Shown piece by piece: positions 10,110 through 47,357 of a stretch of 64,000 bases of DNA. Source of the stretch: Raphanus sativus (lineage: Eukaryota; Streptophyta; Magnoliopsida; Brassicales; Brassicaceae); the NCBI RefSeq assembly GCF_000801105.2, contig NC_079516.1, positions 6,634,001 through 6,698,000 on the forward strand. The letters run 5' to 3'. The position numbers were made by a program, and so were the translations under genes. Each line of letters begins with the position of its first letter. The first letter of the stretch is position 1. The notes below the pieces were generated by a model, which did not search any database, was not told where the DNA came from, and saw only the letters and a list, made by a program, of their open reading frames with translations.

Positions 10110-11216
10110 CTAGTCACCTCTATTTTTTTTTTCTTTTGCAACCATGCTTTGAGGAATTTGAATCAAACTTGGAGCATAATCAAGAACAATTGGTCCGAAT
10201 TGCACTTCTACATAGTCCATTAGTTTGACTATATTATCTTCCTCCCCAGCAACGTATACTAACTTTTTCATCGTGGTATTGAGGTCGAGTACACATGTCT
10301 CACAACATAGGGCGACTTTCTTTTCCTCGTTGAGCAGAAAACGAGTTCTAGTAACCCAAATATCACGTCTGGCGTTATTTACTGTTAAGATCTTTCTCCA
10401 CGACAACTCATTAGTCCCATCAATTTTATTACTCACCCATATATCTTTCCCCCGTGTATTTTTGCGTTGTAGTAACACTGCAAGCTTCTCTTCACTAACA
10501 ACTGATAGAGCCGCATCTCGAAAACAACCTAAAGGACAGTTAAAAGGTAGACTCAGACGTCCAAACCTCTCTGTTGTATAATCAAAACTAACTAAGAACA
10601 TGTCGAGTTGTTCATCTTTACTATCCGAAGCAAACCAATAAGTCTTTCCCTTCAAAGACACGTATGTACTGGTATACAGTAATAGGAAGTCCTTAATCAC
10701 ATCAAGAATCCTCCATGAATTAGAATTAACCTCGTATATTGCAAATTCATGTACAGAATCCCCACGGCTCAATATTTTGTAGCTACTTTCTTGGTAGGAT
10801 CCGAGAGCATATGTGTAGCTTCCATTAAATGGTTGGATCCACCTGGTCCCACCAGTACACGGGTTCCAAAGCATGATTCTAGCATCTTTATCGAAGGTAC
10901 ATAACAATAAACCGTCGCAGTGAAAGACTGTGCTGACTTGATTTGAGTAATCGAGTAGGCTACACGCACCTTTAAACTCTAAAGATGGGGTTCCATGGAG
11001 ATTGAGGCTCATCAAACAGATTTTGAATTCCTTTGTCACCGTTAAAACAAAAGACTGTTTAGGTGCTTTATGGAAGTGCTTTCTTGCGAATTCCTTATCG
11101 TTGAATAAACCGTTCCACCGTTTGCAAGAAGATCGTAACCGTTTCAGAGATATGGCTGGAACTCTGCACAGTATCTCTTCGACCAAATCCCATGGAAGGT
11201 CCGACATCATCGTCAT
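10110..11216 (-). CDS. F-box protein with FBA-type associated domain
   Basis: Single-exon gene of 368 residues starting at ATG 11216. The N-terminus SDLPWDLVEEILCRVP begins a standard F-box of about 45 residues, which binds SKP1 in an SCF ubiquitin ligase. The rest follows the F-box-associated (FBA) beta-propeller-like layout of the large Brassicaceae family: a CDGLLLC motif near residue 100, then LWNPCTGGTRWIQP, then a Trp/Ser-containing middle (NSNSWRILD). The substrate cannot be inferred. The gene ends in a Lys-rich tail (VAKEKKNRGD). It could correspond to one of the F-box genes near At3g19410 or At3g19470, but this family is too large and similar for a confident match. The frame is intact, so no sign of decay. 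Confidence 0.9.
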   Translation of the reverse strand: MTMMSDLPWDLVEEILCRVPAISLKRLRSSCKRWNGLFNDKEFARKHFHKAPKQSFVLTVTKEFKICLMSLNLHGTPSLEFKGACSLLDYSNQVSTVFHCDGLLLCTFDKDARIMLWNPCTGGTRWIQPFNGSYTYALGSYQESSYKILSRGDSVHEFAIYEVNSNSWRILDVIKDFLLLYTSTYVSLKGKTYWFASDSKDEQLDMFLVSFDYTTERFGRLSLPFNCPLGCFRDAALSVVSEEKLAVLLQRKNTRGKDIWVSNKIDGTNELSWRKILTVNNARRDIWVTRTRFLLNEEKKVALCCETCVLDLNTTMKKLVYVAGEEDNIVKLMDYVEVQFGPIVLDYAPSLIQIPQSMVAKEKKNRGD

Positions 11217-20665: not shown

Positions 20666-23600
20666 TCATTCAGATACATCATCATTCTCTTCAACACTAG
20701 AAACATCATCACTTTCATTAAACTCGTCCTCAACAGCATCGTCAGTGGTATCGTCGGGAAGATCTTCATACTCATGATTATGCGGATCAATGAGTAGGAT
20801 GTCTTCCATTTGTTGTTCAGGTTCTTCGACTTCATTGATGTGTTCTTCTTGCAAAGGTGGTTCTTCTCCACCGATTATTCGTCCACGGGGTGTAACTTTG
20901 ATAACAGCTAACCAACTTATTCCAGATTCTCGCAACCTCGGGTATGGTAGGAAGCTAACTTGGTCTGCTTGCGAAGCTAATATGAAAGGCTCGAATTTGT
21001 TGTACCTCCTTCCACCATTGACAGCAACTACACCGAATTTGTTAAATCGAACACCTCTGTTGACCACGGGGTCGAACCAGTCACATTTGAATATGACGCA
21101 TTTCAGCTTCAATAACCCAGGGAATTCCACTTCAATAATCTCCTGCAAGATCCCGTAGAAATCGGTTTCGCCTTTCACACAAATTCCATAATTGCTGGTC
21201 GCCCGGTGTTTACCATACTCGTACGTATGAAAAGTAAAGCCTCGTGAGAAATACATTGGTGATGTGGTGACCTTTGCAAGTGGACCCTGAACTAATTCGT
21301 GAAACCATATGGGATAATCTGGATCCTCATATTCAACCTGCAAAATTAAATTAAAGAGAACATTGAAACAAACGTCTTTCGTTACACCCCGTGGACGAAA
21401 CAAATATCGGATGGAGTAAATACCTGACTCTTCAACCATTTAATAAAGTGTCGATCTTTCCTTTTATCTACCTCACTTGTGGATATGCCTGGGATAGCTT
21501 CTTGGACTTGACTAACAAATAGGCTGTAAAATGCACATATTTTATTAGTTATATCATCATTTGAAAAATATATTTTAATTACAATTAGTTTAGAACTTTC
21601 CATATATGTTACCTTTCAAAATAGCGCATAAATGGATCCTCACAATTAAGTAGAATGTAAGTGTGTGCACTATGGGCGTCTTCATCACTCGACCACCAAA
21701 CCTCTTTCGTTTTCCCACCCATTCGCCCAATCTGGCTAAAGATATCCGGAACACCAGCAACTGCATATGTTGGGGCAACACCACCATCATCATATCTTCT
21801 TGGAGCTCTTTGTCGGGTCCGTACATTAGGTGCAAAGTAGTACGATGTGAAGTGAGATGTTTCTTCCGTCAAACTTCCAGCAATTATAGAACCTTCAACC
21901 TTTGCGAGGTTTTTTGCCTTTCCCTTCAAATATTTCATGGCCCGCTCATACTGATACATCCATCCATAATGTACTGGTCCTCGAAGCAATGCCTCATACG
22001 GGAGGTGGACAGCTAAATGCTCCATGACGTCAAATAATGAGGGAGGAAATATCATCTCCAAGTTGCACAATAAGATCGGAATGTTCTCGTGAAGTTGTTC
22101 TACGACATCCTCTTTAAGAGTGCGAGTGCTCAAGTCCCTGAAAAATGCTCCAATGGCTTTGTATATTCCAAAAACAATTAAGCAAATTATTAGTGCATAT
22201 TTTTGAAAAATAAATTAAGAAATTAATTAGTGTGAGTAATAATATATTACCTGCAAGTGCTTCATGTACTTTTGTGGGAAGTAGCTCCGCAAATGCAAAG
22301 GGAAGTAGTCTTTGCATAAAGACATGACAATCATGACTCTTCATCCCGGAGAACTTTTGGCCCTTTTCAACACATCTAGAGAGGTTTGAAACATACCCAT
22401 CAGGAAACTTCACTGCTGATGCAACCCAGTTGAACAAGACCGACTTTTGTTCTGAAGACAATCTGAATACCGGTACAGGAACTTGTCCATTGCTTTTTAT
22501 ATGTAACTCGGGTCTTGAGCAAATATCAGGCAAGTCCAACCTCGATTTTTGATTGTCTTTTGTCTTCCCTGGAACATTCAATATTGTATTCATGATGTTC
22601 TCAAAAAAATTCTTCTCAATATGCATCACATCTAGGTTGTGGCGCAAAAGAAGATCTTTCCAATACGGCAACTCCCAAAATATACTCTTCTTGTGCCAGT
22701 TGTGCTGAACTCCATAATAATCAGGCATATTACCGGGAACATGCCAATTACCACCACAACGAACTGTTTCTTGAGCTCCGTAGTAATCGATTTTCTGTTC
22801 AATTTGTTCTCCAGTTAAATACGGAGGAGGAGTGTCTCTCACAACCCTTTTCTGCCTAAACAATTTCCTGTTTCTTCGATAAGGATGATTAATGGGAAGA
22901 AATCGCCGGTGACAATCGAACCAACTTGTCTTCCTACCGTTCTTCAGCTGAAATGCATCTGTCGTTCCATTACAATATGGACAAGATAATCTCCCATGTG
23001 TAGTCCACCCAGACAACATCCCATAAGCAGGAAAGTCACTTATGGTCCACAAAAGCATCGCTCGCATCGTAAAATTTGTCTTCGTTGAGCAGTCGTACGT
23101 CCTCACCCCTGTTGCCCACAAATCTTTCAACTCTTTTATCAGTGGCTGTAGAAAGACATCCAGAGACCTTTTTGGATGGTTCGGACCAGGTATTAATATG
23201 GTCAAGAACAGAAACTCCCGTTGCATGCACATATCTGGAGGCAGGTTGTATGGCGTCATAAAGACTGGCCACAATGAATATTGTCTCCCTGACATACCGA
23301 AGGGACTAAATCCGTCCGTGCATAATCCCATATACACATTTCGGCTATTGCTAGCGAATTGTGGATATATTTTGTTAAAATGTTTCCAAGCTCTTGCATC
23401 TGATGGATGAGTCATCTCACCATCCGTCTGAGTATGCTCGGCATGCCATCTCATTTTTCCAGCAGTCTCCTCAGATTGGTACAATCTTTTCAATCTGTCG
23501 GTAATTGGTAGGTACCACATCCTTTGGTACGGTACCCTATTACGTCCTCGTCCTTGCGGTTTGAATCGTGGCTTCTTGCAGAATCGACACTCTTCTAACT

Positions 23601-24399
23601 TCTCATCATCTCCCCAGTAGAGCATGCAGTTGTCGATGCAAACGTCTATCATCTCAGAAGGCAACCCCAGACTATAAACTAGTTTCTGAATCTCATAATA
23701 AGAATCAGCAGAGACATTGTCTTCCGGCAAATACTCTTTAAACAAGTCTGTCCATGCATTCATGCAACTTTCAGGTAGATTATGATCAGTTTTAATACTC
23801 ATCATTCTAGCAGCCAACGACAATTTAGAGAGACCTTCTCTACAACCACTGTAAAGTGGCTGATTCGCAGCATCTAACATTTCATAAAACTTTTTTGCAT
23901 CTATGTTAGGTTCTTCAACTTCATCATCATCATGAGCAACAAATGCATCAGCTACCATATCATGAACCCTATCATAATTATCTACCATCTGCTCCTCCTG
24001 ATGGTATCTATGTTGATTATGCAAATGATCAACCGGTTCATTCTGAAAATTGCTATTACTACTACTAGCTTCATTCTCATAATTATAACCTTCTCCATGT
24101 TGAAACCAGATATAGTAATTTGGCATGAAACCTCTATTTATTAAATGCTTCCAAACATTTTCACGAGTTGCCAGTTTTGAATTGTTGCATTTTCGACAAG
24201 GACAAAACATCTTACCGCTTTCTTGGGCGAGCGGTGTAGAATCTGCTTGATGCATAAATGTCTCTAGTCCTTCCAGATACTCTTTCGTCACTCTCCCGTT
24301 AGCATCTCTATGCGTGTACATCCATCTCCGCAACTCTAAATAATTTCCATCACCAGACATTTTTTTTTTCACGTTTTTAGATTTTTTTTTCTTTTGCAT
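20666..24399 (-). CDS. CACTA TNP2-type transposase
   Basis: Four GT-AG exons, 24399-22251, 22156-21613, 21523-21424 and 21337-20666, join in frame to about 1,154 residues (39 fewer codons-bases if the second ATG at 24360 is used). Domains in order: an N-terminal transposase-associated Cys-rich region (FCPCRKCNNSK), the TNP2 catalytic region with LCTDGFSPFGMSGRQYSLWP and YPYRRNRKLF-like context, HNLDVMHIEKNFFENIMNT, then DUF4218 (FFRDLSTRTLKEDVVEQL), and DUF4216 near the end (GRRYNKFEPFILASQADQV). The C-terminus is strongly acidic. It would cut the CACTA ends and join them to a 3-bp target. I see no stop or frameshift. Minus-strand start lies about 400 bp inside the right end. Confidence 0.92.
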
Positions 24400-32700: not shown

Positions 32701-32906
32701 TTTTCCTCGTACCTTTTGCTACACGTTACAAAAAGTCCCGGATAATAAACATCCACAGGCTTTTATGGGCCCTTGTATTATCATTATGGGCCTTTAATCA
32801 TAGACTTTTCCGTCCGGTTAGACTTATTCAATTCATGATTACAAACCGGTTATACTAGACCGCATCTATTAAAATTGTTGAACCGGCCTATCGATTACAC
32901 AGAACA

Positions 32907-34031: not shown

Positions 34032-34427
34032 TTCTCTCTGTTTAATTAATTACAATTCAAAACTTATTCAATTCATGATTTCAAAACGGTTAAACTAAAC
34101 CAAATCTATTATTAACTTTAAACCGATCAACCAAAACCAAAAAATGCTCTGTCAAAATCTCTGTTAATAAAATGAAACAGTTATGAACTTATATCCAACC
34201 TTTTGAAAAAATGTTTATTTCTTTTGCCTTACTATAGCTTCACTGATTCTTCCAATGCTACAGGTTGAGGTCTTCAGATCCATAAGCACACCCCAAAAAT
34301 GTATAACAAGTTAATAACATAACCAACCTGATGACTGGTGAGGTTTGATCCTTCATTTCTCTAGTTTGTGTGTTCAACTATATTCGTCTATGTCTTCACT
34401 ATAGATCTAAAACCATCATGAATATTC

Positions 34428-37400
34428 CTAAATCAACCTTCGCCTTCTTTTCCTTGATCCAGTATTGGTTAAATCCGATGCCCCAATCTTATTCTCTATG
34501 ACTGAGTTAGTTTCCATTGTTTGTTCGCTACTTCCAGCAACAGATGTCTCCCCTTCACCTCTCAACTTTTCAACACCTTCCTTTGAAGCCATCCTTTTGC
34601 TTGTCGAAAAACGTGTATTATTAAACCAGCTACTAACCTGTAAAGTACATAAACAGCTTATCTCACCAGATAGGAAACAGGATCGACTAACAGTTAAGTC
34701 GAAATAAAATAAAAAAGAAGATGGCTCCTTACTTGTTTAACTGTCATCTCCAACTCTTTAGCTAAGTTCTCCCTCGTGTTAATGTCTGGATATCGATTCT
34801 CTTCAAAAGATTTGAACAGTCTCTGCATTAAAAGAGGAGACTTTAAACCGAAATCTCTCTCATAATGCTTTAGGATAAACATCTTAGGCGCAAAGACAAG
34901 TTTATTTTTTTAAACCTGGGTTCTGGGGTTTGTCTGTTTATTATATACTGCAGAGCTGCTTTTTTCGCCAGAGCAACTATTTTCTCTACGTACTTCTTGT
35001 GGCGCTTCCAGAGCATCTTTTTTGCTTTCTCTTTTTGATATCTGTCTAGGTTTCTCGGTAGAAGTATGCTCCTCTGCTTCTGAGTGCTGTTTCAGAGGTA
35101 CGGTGTCCCCTTCTTCTGCAGACTCCAAGTCTTCTTTTCCCGCAGTTTTATCCCAATCCTCATCATCACTTGAAGACGTTGAAACATTCTCATATTCCTC
35201 CTGTACATACCACGCAATAAAAGATTGAAATTAGCCTTGGTTTTTCCACAACCAAGTAGCAGATTAATTATCTAAAATGCTATAGAACACTCACATCATA
35301 GAGCTTTTTGTAGTCCAGCCTTTCAACCTTTCTCCTCCCAGGAACATCTACGAGACCATCATCATCGATCCCAGTATCTGACTCTGAAATGGGAACATCT
35401 GGGAGCTGAGAATTCTTCCTGCCGGGCTTACCACGTTGTGTAACTTCATCTTGGTGATTAGACTCAACATCCTCAGAGTCTGATGTATTATCTGAATCAG
35501 AACATTCTTGCATTTTATCTTCATCATGAATCGGAGCATCAGGATCATAGTCATCATCCTCAGAATCGTCAGATGGAAGGTCCATTATATCTTTTGCTTC
35601 TTTAAACGATTCAAGCATTTCATCATATTGTTTTCTTTTCCTTGATCCAGTATTGGTTATATTCAATGCTCCAATCTTATTCACTATGACTGAGTTGGTT
35701 TCCATGGTTTGTTCGCTACTTCCAGCAACAGATGTCTCCCCTTCACCTGTTCTTAACTTTTCAACATCTTCCTTTGAAGCCATTCTTTTGTTTGTCGAAA
35801 AACGCGTATTATTAAACCAGCTACTAACCTGTAAAGTAAAGTACACAAACAGCTTTTCTCACCAGATAGGAAACACGATCGACTAACAGTAAGTCGATAT
35901 AAAATTTAAAAAAATGTCTCCTTACTTGTTTAACTGTCATCTCCAACTCTTTAGCTAAGTTCTCTCTCGTGGTAATGTCTGGATATCGATTCTCTTCAAA
36001 AGATTTGAACAGTCTCTGCATTAAAAGAGGAAACTTCAAACCGAAATCTCTCTCATAGTGCTTTAGGGATTAACATCTTAGGCGCAAAGACAAGTATATT
36101 TTATTTACCTGGGTTCTGGGGTTTGTCTGTTTATTATATACTGCAGAGCTGCTTTTTCCGCCAGAGCAACCATTTTCTCTAGGTACTTCTTGTGGCGCTT
36201 TCAAAGTATCCTTTTTGCTTTCTCTTTTAGATATCTGTCTAGGTTTCTTGGTAGAAGTATGTTCTTCTGCTTCTGTGTGCTGTTTCAGAGGCACGTTGTC
36301 CCCTTCTTCTGCAGACTCGAAATCTTCTTTTCCTGCAGTTTTATCCCAATCCTCATCATCACTTGAAGACGTTGGAACGTTCTCATATTCATCCTGCACA
36401 TACCACGCAATAGAAGATTGAAATCAGCATTGGTTTTTCCACAACCAAATAGAAGATTAAATATCTAAAATGTTATAGAACACTCACATCATAGAGCTTT
36501 TTGTAGTCCAGCCTTTCAACCTTCCTCCTCCCAGGAACATCTACGAGACCATCATCATCAATCCCAGTATCTGACTCTGAAATGGGAACATCTGGGAGCT
36601 GAGATTTCTTTCCGCCGGGTTTCCCTTCATCTTGCTGATTAGACTCGTCGCCTTTGAAGGAAGCCTCAAGATCCTCAGAGTCTGATGTATTATCTGAATC
36701 AGAACATTCTTGCATTTTATCTTCATCAGGAACCGGAGCATCAGGATCATAGTCATCATCCTCAGAATCGTCAGATGGAAGGTCCATTATATCTTTCGCT
36801 TCTTTAAACGTTTCGACCATTTCATCAGATGCAGATGTGCAATCAGATTCATCACAACTCCCATCTTCGTTCTCAGACTCATCGCTGTCATCACTGCCAT
36901 CTTCATCGTCTGCTTTATCATTCAAACCATCTGGATCATACTCTTCGTCCTCGAAATCATCTGAAGGAAGATCACAGTCCAGAGATTGACCTCCACCAGC
37001 CATTGCTGCTGCTGCCTCAGGAAAAACTTTCTGCACCATAAACTAGAGTCAGGTGTCTTTTAAAAAATTTCTTCTCCTTTTTTTAACAATAAAAAAACAT
37101 CGTCAAGTCTACCTCCCAACTGTCGCTGACCGAAAGTTTTGTCCCTAAAGACTCATTAAGCAAGTCCAAGCTGTAATCTTTGCAATTACATCCAGGGCAT
37201 AACCAACTCTCATCATCCGGAGGAACTGCAAAAATCAAAACCAAAATAAGTCATTTATAAAATATTACAAGCAAGAAGTGCTTAAACCACTACTACCAAG
37301 TACGTAGGGCAGAAGTTATTACTATCTTCTTTTCGCAAAGGTGGTTCAACACAGTATTGGTGAAAGCCACGGTCACAAAACCCGTCGCATAGTATGATAT

Positions 37401-38381
37401 CATTATCAATAGGCAACTCCTTAGAACCACATTTAGCGCAGAAGATCTGCACTTAAAAAAACGGCTCGTGTTAGCAACACTTCTAGAGACGTAAACTGCT
37501 TTTATCAGGTCAAAAAAAAAAGAACAGGGGAACAAAGCATGAGTTTGGGGGAATAGAGTTCTTTCTTACATCCTCACTAGAAATCTCTCCACCAGAATCA
37601 AATAAAGACTCTGGAATGCTTCCTTGGGCACAGAGTGTGTCCAGGTGCTGAAAAAGCTCTCTGATTTTAACCTTGCGTTTTAGAATCTCCTTCTTGGCTC
37701 GTTCAAGCTCTTTCTCTGGCCTTAGCTTCTCCGCACTACACCACAGAAACACATGATCCTGAGTGAAATTTAGAAAGAAAATCTAAAAATAAAACGAATT
37801 TGAGAGACGAACCTTGAACCTTTCCAGCCTTCTAAAGAATAAGCGTCAATTAGGCTTTGCTCGTATCTAATCCTGTTAAGAAAATACCGAAGCTTCTTTT
37901 TGATTCTTGTGTACTCATCATCTTCTCTAACTTCGCTTTTCCTCACAATAGATTCCTTCCTCTTCTTTGATCCATCTACAGGCGTGGGTGCGGCATTAAC
38001 ATCAACGGAAGATGATCCAGCAGCTTCTTCACATCTCTTGTGAGCTGAAACCACCACATTCCTTTCACCACCACCTCCTCCGAGCTTCTTAGAACTCCGG
38101 TGGATTTCGAATTGTCCACGGCAAGGAAGACCAAGGACAACCTCACGACGATGGGGAACTGAGCTCTTCTTTCCGGTTACAGGAGTTGTTGACTTATGTT
38201 CTTCACCAGAAACCCCATTGGAGATACCCTTTCCCTCATTCCTCGTCGGTTCCTCTGCATGTTTCATGTGAATCTCTGCCTCTGGTGTTTGTAGAACAGG
38301 AGGAACTTTGTCAACTTCTGGATTTGTCTGGTCCAAACCAGATCCACTACTCCTCGTTCTCCGTCTATTAGCACTATGCAT
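34428..38381 (-). CDS. HAT3.1: HAT3.1-type PHD-finger homeodomain protein with two homeodomains
   Basis: Eleven GT-AG exons: 38381-37813, 37735-37570, 37446-37323, 37225-37113, 37030-36488, 36393-36109, 36015-35926, 35828-35295, 35200-34916, 34822-34733 and 34637-34428. All are in frame and give about 1,002 residues; Arabidopsis HAT3.1 is near 720. Residues about 246-301 form a C4HC3 PHD finger ([26 protein letters not shown]), which reads histone tails. An acidic Asp/Glu/Ser region follows (exon 5). Homeodomain 1 spans exons 6-8 ([20 protein letters not shown], then [10 protein letters not shown]) and homeodomain 2 spans exons 9-11 ([30 protein letters not shown]). Both keep W48, F49, N51 and R53. 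Exons 8-10 repeat the acidic part and exons 6-7. Nuclear DNA-binding regulator by family; effect of the second homeodomain is unknown. Confidence 0.92.
34450..36830 (-). repeat. Intragenic tandem duplication, unit about 1.2 kb
   Basis: Unit A runs from about 36826 to 35641 and unit B from about 35640 to 34450. Anchor strings are offset by 1,188-1,202 bp (for example TCCTTGATCC at 34451 and 35639, TCCATTATAT at 35581 and 36783). The junction is inside exon 8, where the original C-terminus GSRKRK runs straight into DEML(E/V)SFKEAK of the copied acidic region. Introns, splice sites and exon lengths match between units (285 and 90 nt each). Confidence 0.93.
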
Positions 38382-39073: not shown

Positions 39074-40693
39074 TCAATACTATTAAAAACATAATTTTTT
39101 ATCGACTTAAAAATAGTCTAAATTTGGACCATTGCATTTATTTAACTTTCTTTTATAACTAACTTAATTATTATTAAATATATACTATATTTTAGTATTT
39201 TCAGAACACTATCTATAAAAAGGTATTCTTAATTATATTTTCTAATATTACATTTTAATAATATATTTTAATATATTTTATTTAAAATGTAAATATACAT
39301 TTTAATTTACTTTTAAATAATCAAAATCATAATTAATAATTAAATATAGTTAAAAACGAATATTAATTCATTTTCATTTATATAATAAGAAATAAAATTT
39401 CTATAATATTTATATATAGATAATTTATATTCGTAATTAAACTACTACAACAACTAATAAATATAAAGTAATTTAATCCATTTATTAACTATTTTCTAAA
39501 TTATAAAATAACATAATAAAATATATACATGAATTTTATAACATACTTCAACTTATTAAAACAAATATAATAGTATGATATAAACTAATAAATAATTTCA
39601 TTATTTAATATATATAAAATAATTTTACCAATATAAAAGATTAAAATATATTTTTACTATAATTTAAAGTTTAAAAATGTAAGTAAAATTGATATGAGGC
39701 GGATTATATAAATGAATTATCTTATTTCATAAAATTATACTCATGTTAATTTTGATTTATATAAGTTCTAAAATTTAATAATAAAATAAATTTTAACCAA
39801 TATAAAAAGGTAAAATACTTTTGTACTATAATTTAAAGTTTTAAAATATAGGTAAATTTTTAATTTATTATATATACTTTAAAAACAAATTTTTATAATA
39901 TATATATATAAGATTTCTAATTTTCAGTAAATAAGTTTTTGAATAAAAATAATCTTGTGCTTTAAGCACATATCAAATCTAATAAATATTATTATTATAT
40001 ATATAATAAAATCTATAACAAAATGAAAATTAATAAATATTAAAATTTCCAAAATTAAATTAAATTAAAATTAAAAATAAATCAAAAACAAAACATCAAA
40101 AATTCTAATAACATGTGAACAATAAAAGTAAACTAAATAAATAAATAAGCAATATATTTATTTCAAACTTAAAACATTAAATTGTAATAACCGTATACGA
40201 ATCGTTGATGGTCAAATCTATTTCTACTTTACTATGCATATTTCGAGATATTGATCCATTATGCTTATAACAAAATGATAAATTAGTTTGACTAATATTT
40301 GTTAAGGCTAATTTTTGTAAAATTGGATTCATGAATCCGCCCTAACTATATTGGATACGGATACTATATTTACTATGCATCTAAACATTCATGAATCCGA
40401 ATACTTTGACTAAAATTATATTACATAATGGGTTGTCTACATGTTTAATCGATAGCCATATCTTAAGTTTTAGTGGTGTTTTACGGGTTTTATAGAATTT
40501 TTAAATAACGAGTTTAACCGGATTACATATAGAGTCATGATTTTATCGGTTTAACAGCGAACCTAAGCTGGATTACAGAATAATGAATATAACATACCAT
40601 ATTTAACATTTAAATGTAGATACACAATCAAAAATACAAATATATATCACTCGAAAATATTTCTGCGTTTTGAAAACACGGATCAAAAACTAG
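39074..40693 (+). mobile_element. Probable Helitron, very AT-rich
   Basis: Starts TCAATACTATTAAAAAC after A and ends with an imperfect stem (TGCGTTTTGAAAACACGG) and ATCAAAAACTAG at 40693, followed by T. It has no coding capacity. The stem is degraded and the interior is almost pure A/T, so this is older than the other Helitrons. Confidence 0.6.
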
Positions 40694-43140: not shown

Positions 43141-46116
43141 TCAAGCATCCTCATTAGTTATAGGCTTTAAACCCATTCCTTTTGATGATTTAGCAACAAC
43201 ATCTCGTGGCAAACCTTTAGTAAATGGATCCGCTAGGTTGTCAGCCGATTTGATGTAATCTATTGTGATTACACCAGTTGAGATAAGTTGTCTAATGGTT
43301 TTATGTCGTCTTCTAATATGACGAGATTTACCATTGTAGAGATTATTCTGAGCCCGAGCTATAGCTGATTGACTATCACAATGTATTCTTATAGCTGGTA
43401 CAGGTTTCTCCCACATAGGAACATCTTCCAAAAAATTTCTAAGCCATTCAGCTTCTTCTGCTGCTTTGTCTAATGCTATGAACTCAGATTCCATAGTTGA
43501 CCTGGCTAGCACTGTTTGTTTGGTAGATTTCCAAGATATTGCCGCTCCTCCTAGTGTAAAAACATATCCACTTGTGGATTTTGAGTTTTTAGAATCTGAT
43601 ATCCAGTTAGCGTCACTGTATCCTTCTAAAACTGCTGGTTCTTTACCATAGTGAAGCCCAAAATCTTTGGTGTAGCGCAAGTAATTGAGTACTCTCGTTA
43701 TAGCTTTCCAGTGTGTATGACCTGGATTACTTGTATATCGACTAAGTACGTTTACTGCATGCGCTAGATCTGGTCTTGTACAATTGGTCAAGTACATGAG
43801 ACTTTCGATCACACGTGCATACTCATTTTGTGAAACCGCTTCACCTGAATTCTTTGTCAAGTGCATTTGGGGATCTAACGGAGTTTTTGCAGTACTATTA
43901 GAGTAGTTTTTAAATCTCTCTAATATTGTTTCAGCATAATGAGATTGAGTTAAAGTAATTCCATTTGAATTTCTTATGATTTTAACCCCGAGAATAACAT
44001 CTGCTAATCCCAAATCTTTCATCTCAAATTTTCCTTTGAGCATGTTTTTTGTTTGATTGATAATGTCTTTATTGCTTCCAATAATGAGCATATCATCTAC
44101 ATATAAACATAACAAAACATACGCATTTTTGGTAATTTTGTAGTATATGCATTTATCACATTCATTAATTTTGAAACCATTTGACATCATTGTGTTGTCA
44201 AATTTTTCGTGCCATTGTTTAGGAGCTTGTTTAAGCCCATAAAGTGACTTTACAAGTCGGCATACTTTGTCTTCCTGTCCAGGAATGACATGGCCCTCAG
44301 GTTGTTTCATGTAAATTTCTTCTTCTAAATCACCATTTAGAAAAGCTGTTTTTACATCCATTTGATGGATTTCTAAGTCTCTTAAAGCTGCGATAGCTAT
44401 CATCGACCTTATAGATGTTATTCTGGTTACTGGAGAATATGTATCAAAATAGTCAAAGCCTTCCCTTTGTCGGAACCCTTGAACTACAAGCCTAGCTTTA
44501 TATTTTCCACCAGGTTTTCGTGTCATTATCCATCTATTACCTAATGCTTTGCAGCCAGGTGGTAAATCCGTTACGTACCATGTGTAATTTTGCATGATAG
44601 AATCGAATTCACTTTTGACAGCTTCATTCCAAAACGGAGCTTCGGGTGAAGCCATAGCTTCTGCCAAAGTTTTTGGAACATTTTCTACTAGAAATGCCAT
44701 TAGGAAATCATCACCAAAAGATTTCTCCTTTCGAGCTCTTTTGCTTCTCCGAGGTTCATCTTTTTCTTCATTTTCTGAGATATCATTTATAGAAACTTCA
44801 ACGTTTGTCTCAATTTCTGAGTCCTTGTCGTTGTCTCTTTCTTCTCGAGTTCGTTTTGAACCATGTTTTTCCTTGTATGGAAAAATATTTTCGAAGAAAG
44901 ATGCATTTCTAGACTCCATGACTGAATTTTTATGGATGTCTGATATTTCAGATTCATGTACCAGAAACCGATACGCAGTACTATTATGTGCATATCCGAT
45001 GAAAATGCAATCCACTGTTTTAGGTCCAATAGTGACCTTCTTTGGTGGCGGTACTGCAACTTTTGCCAAGCACCCCCACACTTTGAGGTATTTATACGAA
45101 GGTAAATTACCTTTCCATAATTCATATGGAGTTTTGCCAGTTATTTTGTGTGGAATCTTGTTGAGGATATAATTAGTGGTAAGTAACGCTTCCCCCCACA
45201 TGTTCTGGGGTGACCCAGATTCCTGCAACATTGCATTCATCATCTCTTTAAGAGTTCGATTTTTTCGTTCAGCAACTCCATTAGATTCTGGTGAATAAGG
45301 GGCTGTAGTTTGATGTATTATTCCATGTTCCTTACAAAATGAATTGAATGGACCATCATACTCGCCTCCTCTGTCGCTTCTAACTACCTTAATAGTTGTT
45401 TTAAGCTGATTTTCGACCTCGAGTTTAAATTCTTTGAATTTATCTAAGGTTTCATCTTTGCTATGTAAAAGATAAACATAACAATATTTTGTGCAGTCAT
45501 CTATGAAAGTCACAAAGTACTTTTTCCCTCCTCTAGTTGGCATATATTTTAAATCACATAAATCAGTGTGAATTAAATCTAGAGGTTTATTAGTTCTTTC
45601 AACACGAGGTGAGGGCGTTTTTGTGAGCTTAGCCTGTACGCAAACTTCACATTTTTGTTTACTTGTTTTAAATTTGGGAATTAAATTTAAATTCATCAAT
45701 CTTTGTATAGATTTATTATTTACATGGCCTAATCTTTCATGCCATATATTAAAAGACTCAACCAAATAAGCAACTGGCTCTTTCTTATTCATTGAAACTT
45801 TTGGAGCTACAATTTTCGGAGGGACGGTCATTACATTCAACTTGACCAGTCCATCCTTAACATACCCCTTTCCCAAATACATTCCATTCTTCCTAATCAC
45901 GAGCTTATCTGCCTCAAAGCTTGTGGCGAATCCATTCTTGCTGAGCAAGGTTCCCGAGACCAGGTTTTTCCTCATGTCAGGCACATGTTTCACATTTGTC
46001 AGAGTGACCTCACGTCCAGATGTCATCTTCAAAATCACATTGCCGCGTCCTTCAATCTTGGAGACTGCAGTGTTTCCCATCCTGAGCTTCTCCTGAGTCT
46101 TGCTTTTCTGATAGGT
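43141..46116 (-). CDS. Copia pol: integrase, reverse transcriptase, RNase H
   Basis: Open for about 980 codons from the first in-frame ATG (46080) to the stop at 43141. Domains in order: zinc-binding H-H-C-C region of integrase ([10 protein letters not shown] ... CEVCVQAK), integrase core with [25 protein letters not shown] and the [14 protein letters not shown] glutamate, then reverse transcriptase ([30 protein letters not shown]) and RNase H ([13 protein letters not shown], then IHCDSQSAI). It lies in a different frame from gag-protease. The reading frame has no other lesion. Proteins of this order copy the RNA and integrate the DNA. Confidence 0.93.
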
Positions 46117-47357
46117 GTGAACATCGCCCTATCAGTGCAAATGTGGGTGGTTGCACCAGTGTCATACCACCATTCCCTGGGGTTGTTGCTTTCAACCATG
46201 TTGGCTTCAGTCACCACAGCAACAAGATCCTCCTCAGTGAGATTTGCCTGAGCCTTCTCATCTTTGATCTTCTTGCGACACTCAGCAGTCTTGTGTCCCA
46301 CTTTGTTGCAGTAGTGACATTTCCCCTTGAATCTCTCCACATTCGCATTGATTTCAATGCCTTTGTTCTTGAAGTTTTTTCCAGTAGCTTTCAGTGCTGC
46401 AGCAGTTTTCGAAGGCTTTGCTGGAGAATGGGCGTGTGCCTTTCCTTTGCCTTTGTGCTCAGCCATGTTGACACTATGCTCCTTAGCATTGATCTTGTCA
46501 GCAATTCGGTTCCTGGATTCCATCTGAAGCCTCATGATAAGCTCCTCAAGGCCCATCTTCTTCTTCTTGTGCTTCAGGTAGTTCTTGAAATCCGCATAGC
46601 TTGGAGGAAGCTTTTCAATGAAGCTGAGAGTTGTGAATGTCTCGCAGATGGACATCCCTTCAGCTTTGATTTCATGGCAAATGAGCTGGAACGCTTCCAC
46701 CTGATCCATGATGGGTTTTGAATCCACCATTTTGAAGTCATGAAATTTTGCAACCACATACTTCTGGCAGCCAGCGTCCTCACCTCTGTACTTCTTGTCA
46801 AGTGATCTCCATAGCTCCTTCGCCGTTGGAATGTCACAGTAGACACGGTACAATGGGTCAATGAGGCGACCCAAAATGTAGCCTTTGCAGACGAAGTCAG
46901 AATGCACCCAAATGTCAACACTTGCGAGAGTGTGTACATCATCAATCCCGTAAGGGACAAGGGGCTTGTCCTCCTGGATGAACTTGTCCAGCTTCAACGT
47001 TGTTAGGAAGAACATCATCTTCTTCTGCCACGTTTTAAAGTTTTTGCCATCAAACTGGTCTGGCATCAGTCCTTGAGTGAACAGGCTGGGCACAGACGGA
47101 GGAGTTGGTACTGCAACCGGACCACTTGAGGTTCCTAGACCTGAACCCGTTTGATAAAGGCCAGCACCGAACAAGCTACGGCGCGTGGTTTCATCAGCAC
47201 TGTTTCCCGCAGGAAGGGTAGTGGTTGTTGTTGCTGCAACGGTTGAGGAAGTAGGGATGTTTCCAGCGGTTGTCACACCAGATACATCAGTTGCAGCAAC
47301 GTTGATTGGGGTTTGCACGATGGTAGTGTCAATGGGGGTGTTGTTTGCATCCGTCAT
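46035..47357 (-). CDS. Copia gag and start of protease
   Basis: From ATG 47357: a Thr/Ala-rich start, the UBN2-type gag body ([20 protein letters not shown]), a CCHC zinc knuckle [14 protein letters not shown], and the aspartic protease active site [14 protein letters not shown]. Soon after the active site the frame changes relative to pol: near 46114-46119 the protease sequence continues only in the pol frame. In plant copia elements gag and pol are usually one frame, so a small deletion or insertion is likely. The gag frame ends at 46035 after non-homologous codons. Confidence 0.9.

Follow-up and report, generated by a model that had tools for sequence, protein, structure and literature searches.

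A HAT3.1-type homeobox gene of the Brassica-like plant Raphanus sativus has probably undergone an internal tandem duplication, yielding a predicted protein with two homeodomains. The gene occupies 34428..38381 on the minus strand of the window, the whole 64-kb stretch of DNA analysed, and was modelled by spliced translation and homologue search. Its 11 exons, all on the minus strand (1-6 at 38381-37813, 37735-37570, 37446-37323, 37225-37113, 37030-36488 and 36393-36109; 7-11 at 36015-35926, 35828-35295, 35200-34916, 34822-34733 and 34637-34428), give 3009 nt and 1002 aa, with a sole, terminal stop codon and GT..AG ends at 10/10 introns. Pfam recognises one PHD finger in the predicted protein (PF00628, E 2.5e-10; residues 248-299, exons 3-4, 37188..37440, minus strand) and two homeodomain stretches (PF00046, with a match spanning profile positions 8-52 of 57). 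According to a passage in PMC5626728, the PHD class is defined by a PHD domain placed N-terminal to the homeodomain, and this is the arrangement found here, as in the PHD-class homeobox proteins HAT3.1, PRHA and ZmHox. Among the matches listed by the homologue search, the nearest database proteins are of the Brassicaceae HAT3.1 type. Membership of the HAT3.1 family, as proposed in the initial annotation, is thus borne out by the two Pfam families, by this search and by a tree of the N-terminal part.

The repeat unit is 1.2 kb long and comprises the acidic segment, exons 6 and 7 and the start of the last exon, with the two tandem copies sharing 92% DNA identity, introns included. In the copy alignment, copy 1 (35633..36827, minus strand) covers the acidic end of exon 5, exons 6 and 7 and the first part of exon 8, while copy 2 (34445..35625, minus strand) covers the rest of exon 8, exons 9 and 10 and most of exon 11. 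A 7-nt junction within exon 8 lies between the aligned copies (35626..35632, minus strand). The copies join in frame inside this coding exon, at the place where a stop codon would stand. A global alignment of the two units finds 1078 of 1167 ungapped positions identical. The similarity falls into eight ungapped pieces with a spacing of 1181-1202 bp, six of which are 92-95% identical; the other two are short, lie beside indels and reach 77-79%. Chance similarity was ruled out, because the local score of the unit reaches 960, whereas 50 shuffles of two-base blocks never exceeded 22. Exon 8 therefore ends homeodomain 1 and then begins the acidic segment anew, exons 9-10 correspond to exons 6-7, and exon 11 ends homeodomain 2. 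Together with the open 1002-aa frame, the copy alignment confirms the in-frame tandem duplication and the exon correspondence that had been noted before.

Homeodomain 1 (residues 587-646; 35781..36150, minus strand) is encoded by the end of exon 6, exon 7 and the start of exon 8, and homeodomain 2 (residues 890-949, with the best Pfam stretch at 898-942; 34590..34957, minus strand) by the end of exon 9, exon 10 and the start of exon 11. Pfam and the residue table uphold the earlier description of two complete homeodomains about 300 residues apart, the distance between their starts being 303 residues. The core residues of a homeodomain include L16, F20, W48, F49, N51 and R53. All of these, and N50, are present in both domains in the residue table. 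The two domains differ at 2/50 positions (residues 9-58), by T/N in mid-domain and N/S near the end, and with so few differences they would be unlikely to have distinct DNA targets. The best PDB sequence match, to homeodomain 1, is human DUX4, which also has two homeodomains, although the similarity is that of homeodomains in general. DUX4 has no PHD finger, and its homeodomains lie close together.

Both copies look to be under protein-level constraint, since the Ka/Ks between them is 0.27 (bootstrap 0.15-0.50), a value that averages over both copies and whose upper bound touches 0.50. A ratio of 0.5 is the expectation if one copy were unconstrained and the other fully constrained, and 2.4% of 5000 bootstrap replicates reach it. 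The underlying estimates are Ks 0.141 ± 0.030 and Ka 0.038 ± 0.007 over 294 codons, and the introns of the copies differ at 23/278 sites (0.088 when corrected). In a plain DNA alignment, the copies show two gaps in exons, of 9 and 3 nt, and five in introns, of 1, 1, 2, 1 and 5 nt; the codon-wise alignment renders the first exonic gap as gaps of 7 and 4 codons. As there are just two exonic gaps, their preservation of the frame lends weak support to constraint. Relative-rate comparisons with four relatives counted 5/13, 10/12, 10/13 and 9/7 changes in copy 1 and copy 2, respectively. Neither copy is clearly decaying, as the largest chi-square of these comparisons, 3.56, is below the usual 3.84. 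A pseudogene was rejected on the basis of the open frame and the Ka/Ks ratio.

The duplication could be real in the DNA while the working product carries one homeodomain, with alternative splicing or retention of intron 9 removing or truncating a copy. Single-homeodomain isoforms are possible, because the exon-9 donor appears weak and exon skips keep the frame. The donor of intron 9 (34823..34915, minus strand, in the gene model) reads CAG/GTTTAA, compared with CAG/GTAAAT at exon 6, and looks weak against the plant consensus. With an in-frame stop just behind this donor, a transcript retaining the intron would encode a protein that ends after residue 904, leaving homeodomain 2 incomplete. In addition, exons 6-10 are each a multiple of three nucleotides long and end in phase 0, which leaves 15/15 contiguous skips among them in frame. 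Skipping exons 8-10, 7-9 or 6-8 would yield 699 aa with one homeodomain, comparable to 712 aa in B. napus and 692 aa in Hirschfeldia. Against this, the Ka/Ks of 0.27 argues that the exons of both copies are translated, although the copies could still serve different isoforms. On balance, a working product with a single homeodomain seems unlikely.

The duplication seems to have arisen within the lineage of the Raphanus sativus gene, since the two copies share changes, such as E21 and E39 of the homeodomain, that are missing from four aligned relatives (P0002, P0003, P0004 and P0008). The copies are sisters both in the Brassicaceae tree (97/92) and in a tree of 82 homeodomain units (100/88). In a tree of the part preceding the repeat (21 proteins), the 1002-aa protein groups with proteins of Hirschfeldia, B. 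napus and B. carinata/oleracea (99/98), apart from those of Eruca, Raphanus and Sinapis alba, which fall in a second Brassiceae paralogue group (100/99). The Brassica assignment of the initial annotation thus fits the tree at the level of a clade that contains Brassica and Hirschfeldia proteins. Its closest single-homeodomain counterparts have the same order of PHD finger, acidic segment and homeodomain. These include the Brassica/Hirschfeldia proteins P0002-P0004, with 83% local identity to the 1002-aa protein, and Arabidopsis HAT3.1 (P0018, 723 aa), which has H at position 51 whereas both Raphanus sativus homeodomains have N.

The annotated Eruca vesicaria protein P0001 (1036 aa) has the same layout, with a PHD finger followed by two homeodomains that lie 317 residues apart, and its unit boundaries are in almost the same places. 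However, it belongs to the other Brassiceae paralogue group and has a different junction. AU tests reject a single duplication shared with Eruca. They do so when the first copies of the Raphanus sativus gene and Eruca are placed together (p 0.00026) and when the second copies are (p 6e-13). Eruca's own two copies are not sisters in the best Brassicaceae tree, but that arrangement is not rejected (p 0.50). Predicted structure is available for the Eruca protein, in which both homeodomains form three-helix folds (10-residue block means of 74-94 and 81-96) and the surroundings are mostly below 50. With a mean pLDDT of 45.5 and a pTM of 0.29, this model says nothing on the relative placement of the homeodomains.

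The likeness to Eruca raises the alternative of an old duplication that predated the split of the two Brassiceae paralogues, was lost in most genes and was homogenised by gene conversion. In the protein, the Eruca unit begins within a few codons of the same position and has almost the same end point, and conversion would also make the copies of one gene appear as sisters. Nevertheless, the two genes fall in different paralogue groups (99/98 and 100/99), and the Eruca junction, SRKRRRRDDSASDEM, differs from that of the Raphanus sativus gene. A clade uniting the four units of both genes is rejected as well (AU test p 1.1e-6), although conversion might have gone unseen in these tests. Taken together, an ancient origin appears quite improbable.

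The shared changes favour a duplication within the gene's own lineage, but the relationships of its copies to other species complicate both its dating and a simple single-lineage origin. Copy 1 shares a four-codon QQDE gap, and copy 2 a C-terminal stretch ASDLTNTG, with P0004. Joining one copy to another species was not rejected in 4/5 tests (p 0.13-0.28), while joining copy 1 with B. napus was rejected (p 0.035). The trees also disagree on the closest relative with a single copy, the N-terminal tree giving Hirschfeldia and the unit tree B. napus. The copies may thus derive from two different alleles, or may have undergone conversion, and Ks therefore does not safely date the event. It is very improbable that the assembly merged two alleles or homeologues into one gene. 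The roughly 8% divergence of the copies and the traits that each has in common with other species would fit such a merger, but the join lies in frame within a coding exon, has 7 nt between the copies and stands in the stop codon's place, a precision hardly expected of a mis-join. Two trees also group the copies together, and Eruca shows the same layout.

In the proposed duplication, a break or template switch would have linked the gene's final codons, which encode the basic tail and precede the stop codon, to a point midway through the acidic exon. The join would have added 7 extra bases and kept the frame. Given this 7-nt filler and unit ends that share no long homology, end joining or template switching would be a likelier route than ordinary unequal crossing over. 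The resulting order is PHD finger, acidic segment, homeodomain 1, acidic segment, homeodomain 2. The acidic stretch may itself be prone to duplicate; compare Sinapis alba P0005, in which a small internal duplication at about residues 423-500 involves the acidic segment alone.

Several other repeats and coding frames were seen in the window. Downstream of the HAT3.1-type gene lies a 64-nt direct repeat (32822-32885 and 34062-34125; 81% identical, 1240 nt apart), and an AT-rich stretch at 39589-39859 contains a 102-nt repeat (75% identical, 169 nt apart). Frames of a Copia-type retrotransposon (gag, integrase and reverse transcriptase) lie at 43141-47357 and those of a CACTA-like transposon (Transposase_21, Transpos_assoc and DUF4216) at 20666-24399, both on the minus strand, as is a gene for an F-box protein with an FBA_1 domain (10110-11216).

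As for its mode of action, the protein would be made as a nuclear chromatin regulator, with the PHD finger reading histone tails. Joined by a flexible acidic linker, the two equal homeodomains could then contact DNA singly or together, and near-identical domains might bind two like sites and so gain avidity. As the homeodomains are nearly identical, raised avidity or the use of two like sites seems more likely than two specificities. DNA looping by the two homeodomains is also possible.

How common are such proteins? A family profile was applied to 266 fetched relatives (the best 120 per search) and scored one homeodomain in 230, none in 1, two in 32 and three in 3; the Raphanus sativus protein is an additional two-homeodomain case. 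Two or three matches thus occur in 35/266 relatives, in a sample that is biased, as the second and third searches were queried with two-homeodomain regions and the first query itself has two. Among the best 120 of the first search, 8 have more than one homeodomain. By our own taxonomic grouping, the 35 comprise Eruca (1), Rubroshorea (1), the sunflower tribe (2), Drosera (3), cool-season grasses (5), other grasses (18), orchids (4) and one other. Database gene models may include fused neighbours, and in the cool-season grass protein P0170, counted as two, the first match is a 17-residue fragment. Three Drosera proteins from two species (P0052, P0064 and P0111) have three matches each, one of them truncated in P0111. 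The profile was preferred because a WF.N.R motif search missed several homeodomains. When 12 whole proteins were searched against themselves by BLAST, no rows were returned, and internal repeats were instead sought by comparing the sequences on either side of the first homeodomain. In the residue table, P0064 copy 1, P0171 copy 2 and P0111 copy 2 are without an anchor, and the anchor rule misplaces the numbering of homeodomain 1 in P0027, so that the 45 differences counted there are artefactual. The N that usually occupies position 51 is replaced by S, A, G or R in many grass copies, by K in the first homeodomain of Helianthus and Bidens, and by H in Arabidopsis.

The unit tree covers 82 homeodomain units from 56 proteins, hand-picked from 267; formal clade tests were confined to Brassicaceae. 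The copies of Eruca (99/88) and of Rubroshorea (100/99) group together, as do all nine Drosera copies (100/99) and the four copies of Helianthus and Bidens (91/86). Copies from eight other grasses form one 16-unit group (94/89), with rice outside. Within this group, the second copies make up one branch (100/99) and the first copies are split in two. Second (100/93) and third (100/99) Drosera copies likewise group across species, the first weakly so (88/66). As equivalent copies group across species, the grass and Drosera copies appear to have persisted across speciation events. Cool-season grass copies are mixed with single-homeodomain proteins of wheat, barley and Brachypodium, and orchid copies do not resolve, so a separate origin of these two sets is less clear. 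Nine long rows, including Vanilla copy 2, Phalaenopsis copy 2 and Hordeum, were flagged, and their placement is unsure.

The maize protein ZmHox2a presumably belongs to the same PHD-class family as HAT3.1, which fits three maize proteins that have a PHD finger and two homeodomains, like the Raphanus sativus gene (P0195, P0202 and P0208, none of them equated with ZmHox2a). According to its title, as given in the reference list of PMC2772851, the report of Kirch et al. (1998, Nucleic Acids Res. 26:4714) describes ZmHox2a as having two homeodomains derived from an internal duplication and with different target specificities. The premise of the initial annotation that HAT3.1/PRHA-type proteins have one homeodomain was therefore too narrow, both for this published maize title and for the 35/266 relatives that score two or three. 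The Raphanus sativus gene resembles ZmHox2a in having gained two homeodomains by internal duplication in one gene. It does not appear to descend from the same duplication as in maize, as its copies are sisters inside Brassicaceae and the grass copies lie elsewhere in the unit tree. Moreover, the homeodomain pairs of maize P0202 and P0208 differ at 14 and 12/50 positions and are without N51, whereas the Raphanus sativus pair differs at 2/50 and keeps it. Since the relatives and ZmHox2a provide a precedent and the trees separate this event from Eruca's, the gene is apparently a new, independent case of a known two-homeodomain type.

More tentatively, and with some doubt, the acidic-homeodomain module may duplicate in place repeatedly (in Raphanus sativus, Eruca, the sunflower tribe, Drosera, Rubroshorea, two grass groups and orchids), the extra homeodomain being kept because several DNA contacts are favoured in one chromatin reader. 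Among the matches listed by a search of open-licence papers, no paper on repeated internal duplication in the PHD-class homeobox family was found. Such repeated duplication of one module within one plant family would be an interesting wider pattern. If true, the PHD-class family would amount to a natural replicate experiment on homeodomain number, and repeated origin in one family would make selection on that number testable. The Raphanus sativus gene provides an apparently intact, lineage-restricted domain gain in a transcription factor. As both copies and unduplicated relatives are available, the gain of a second DNA-binding domain could be traced before the homeodomains diverge. Together with the grass pairs, which have diverged and in many cases are without N51, the gene would give a series from near-identical to diverged homeodomains.
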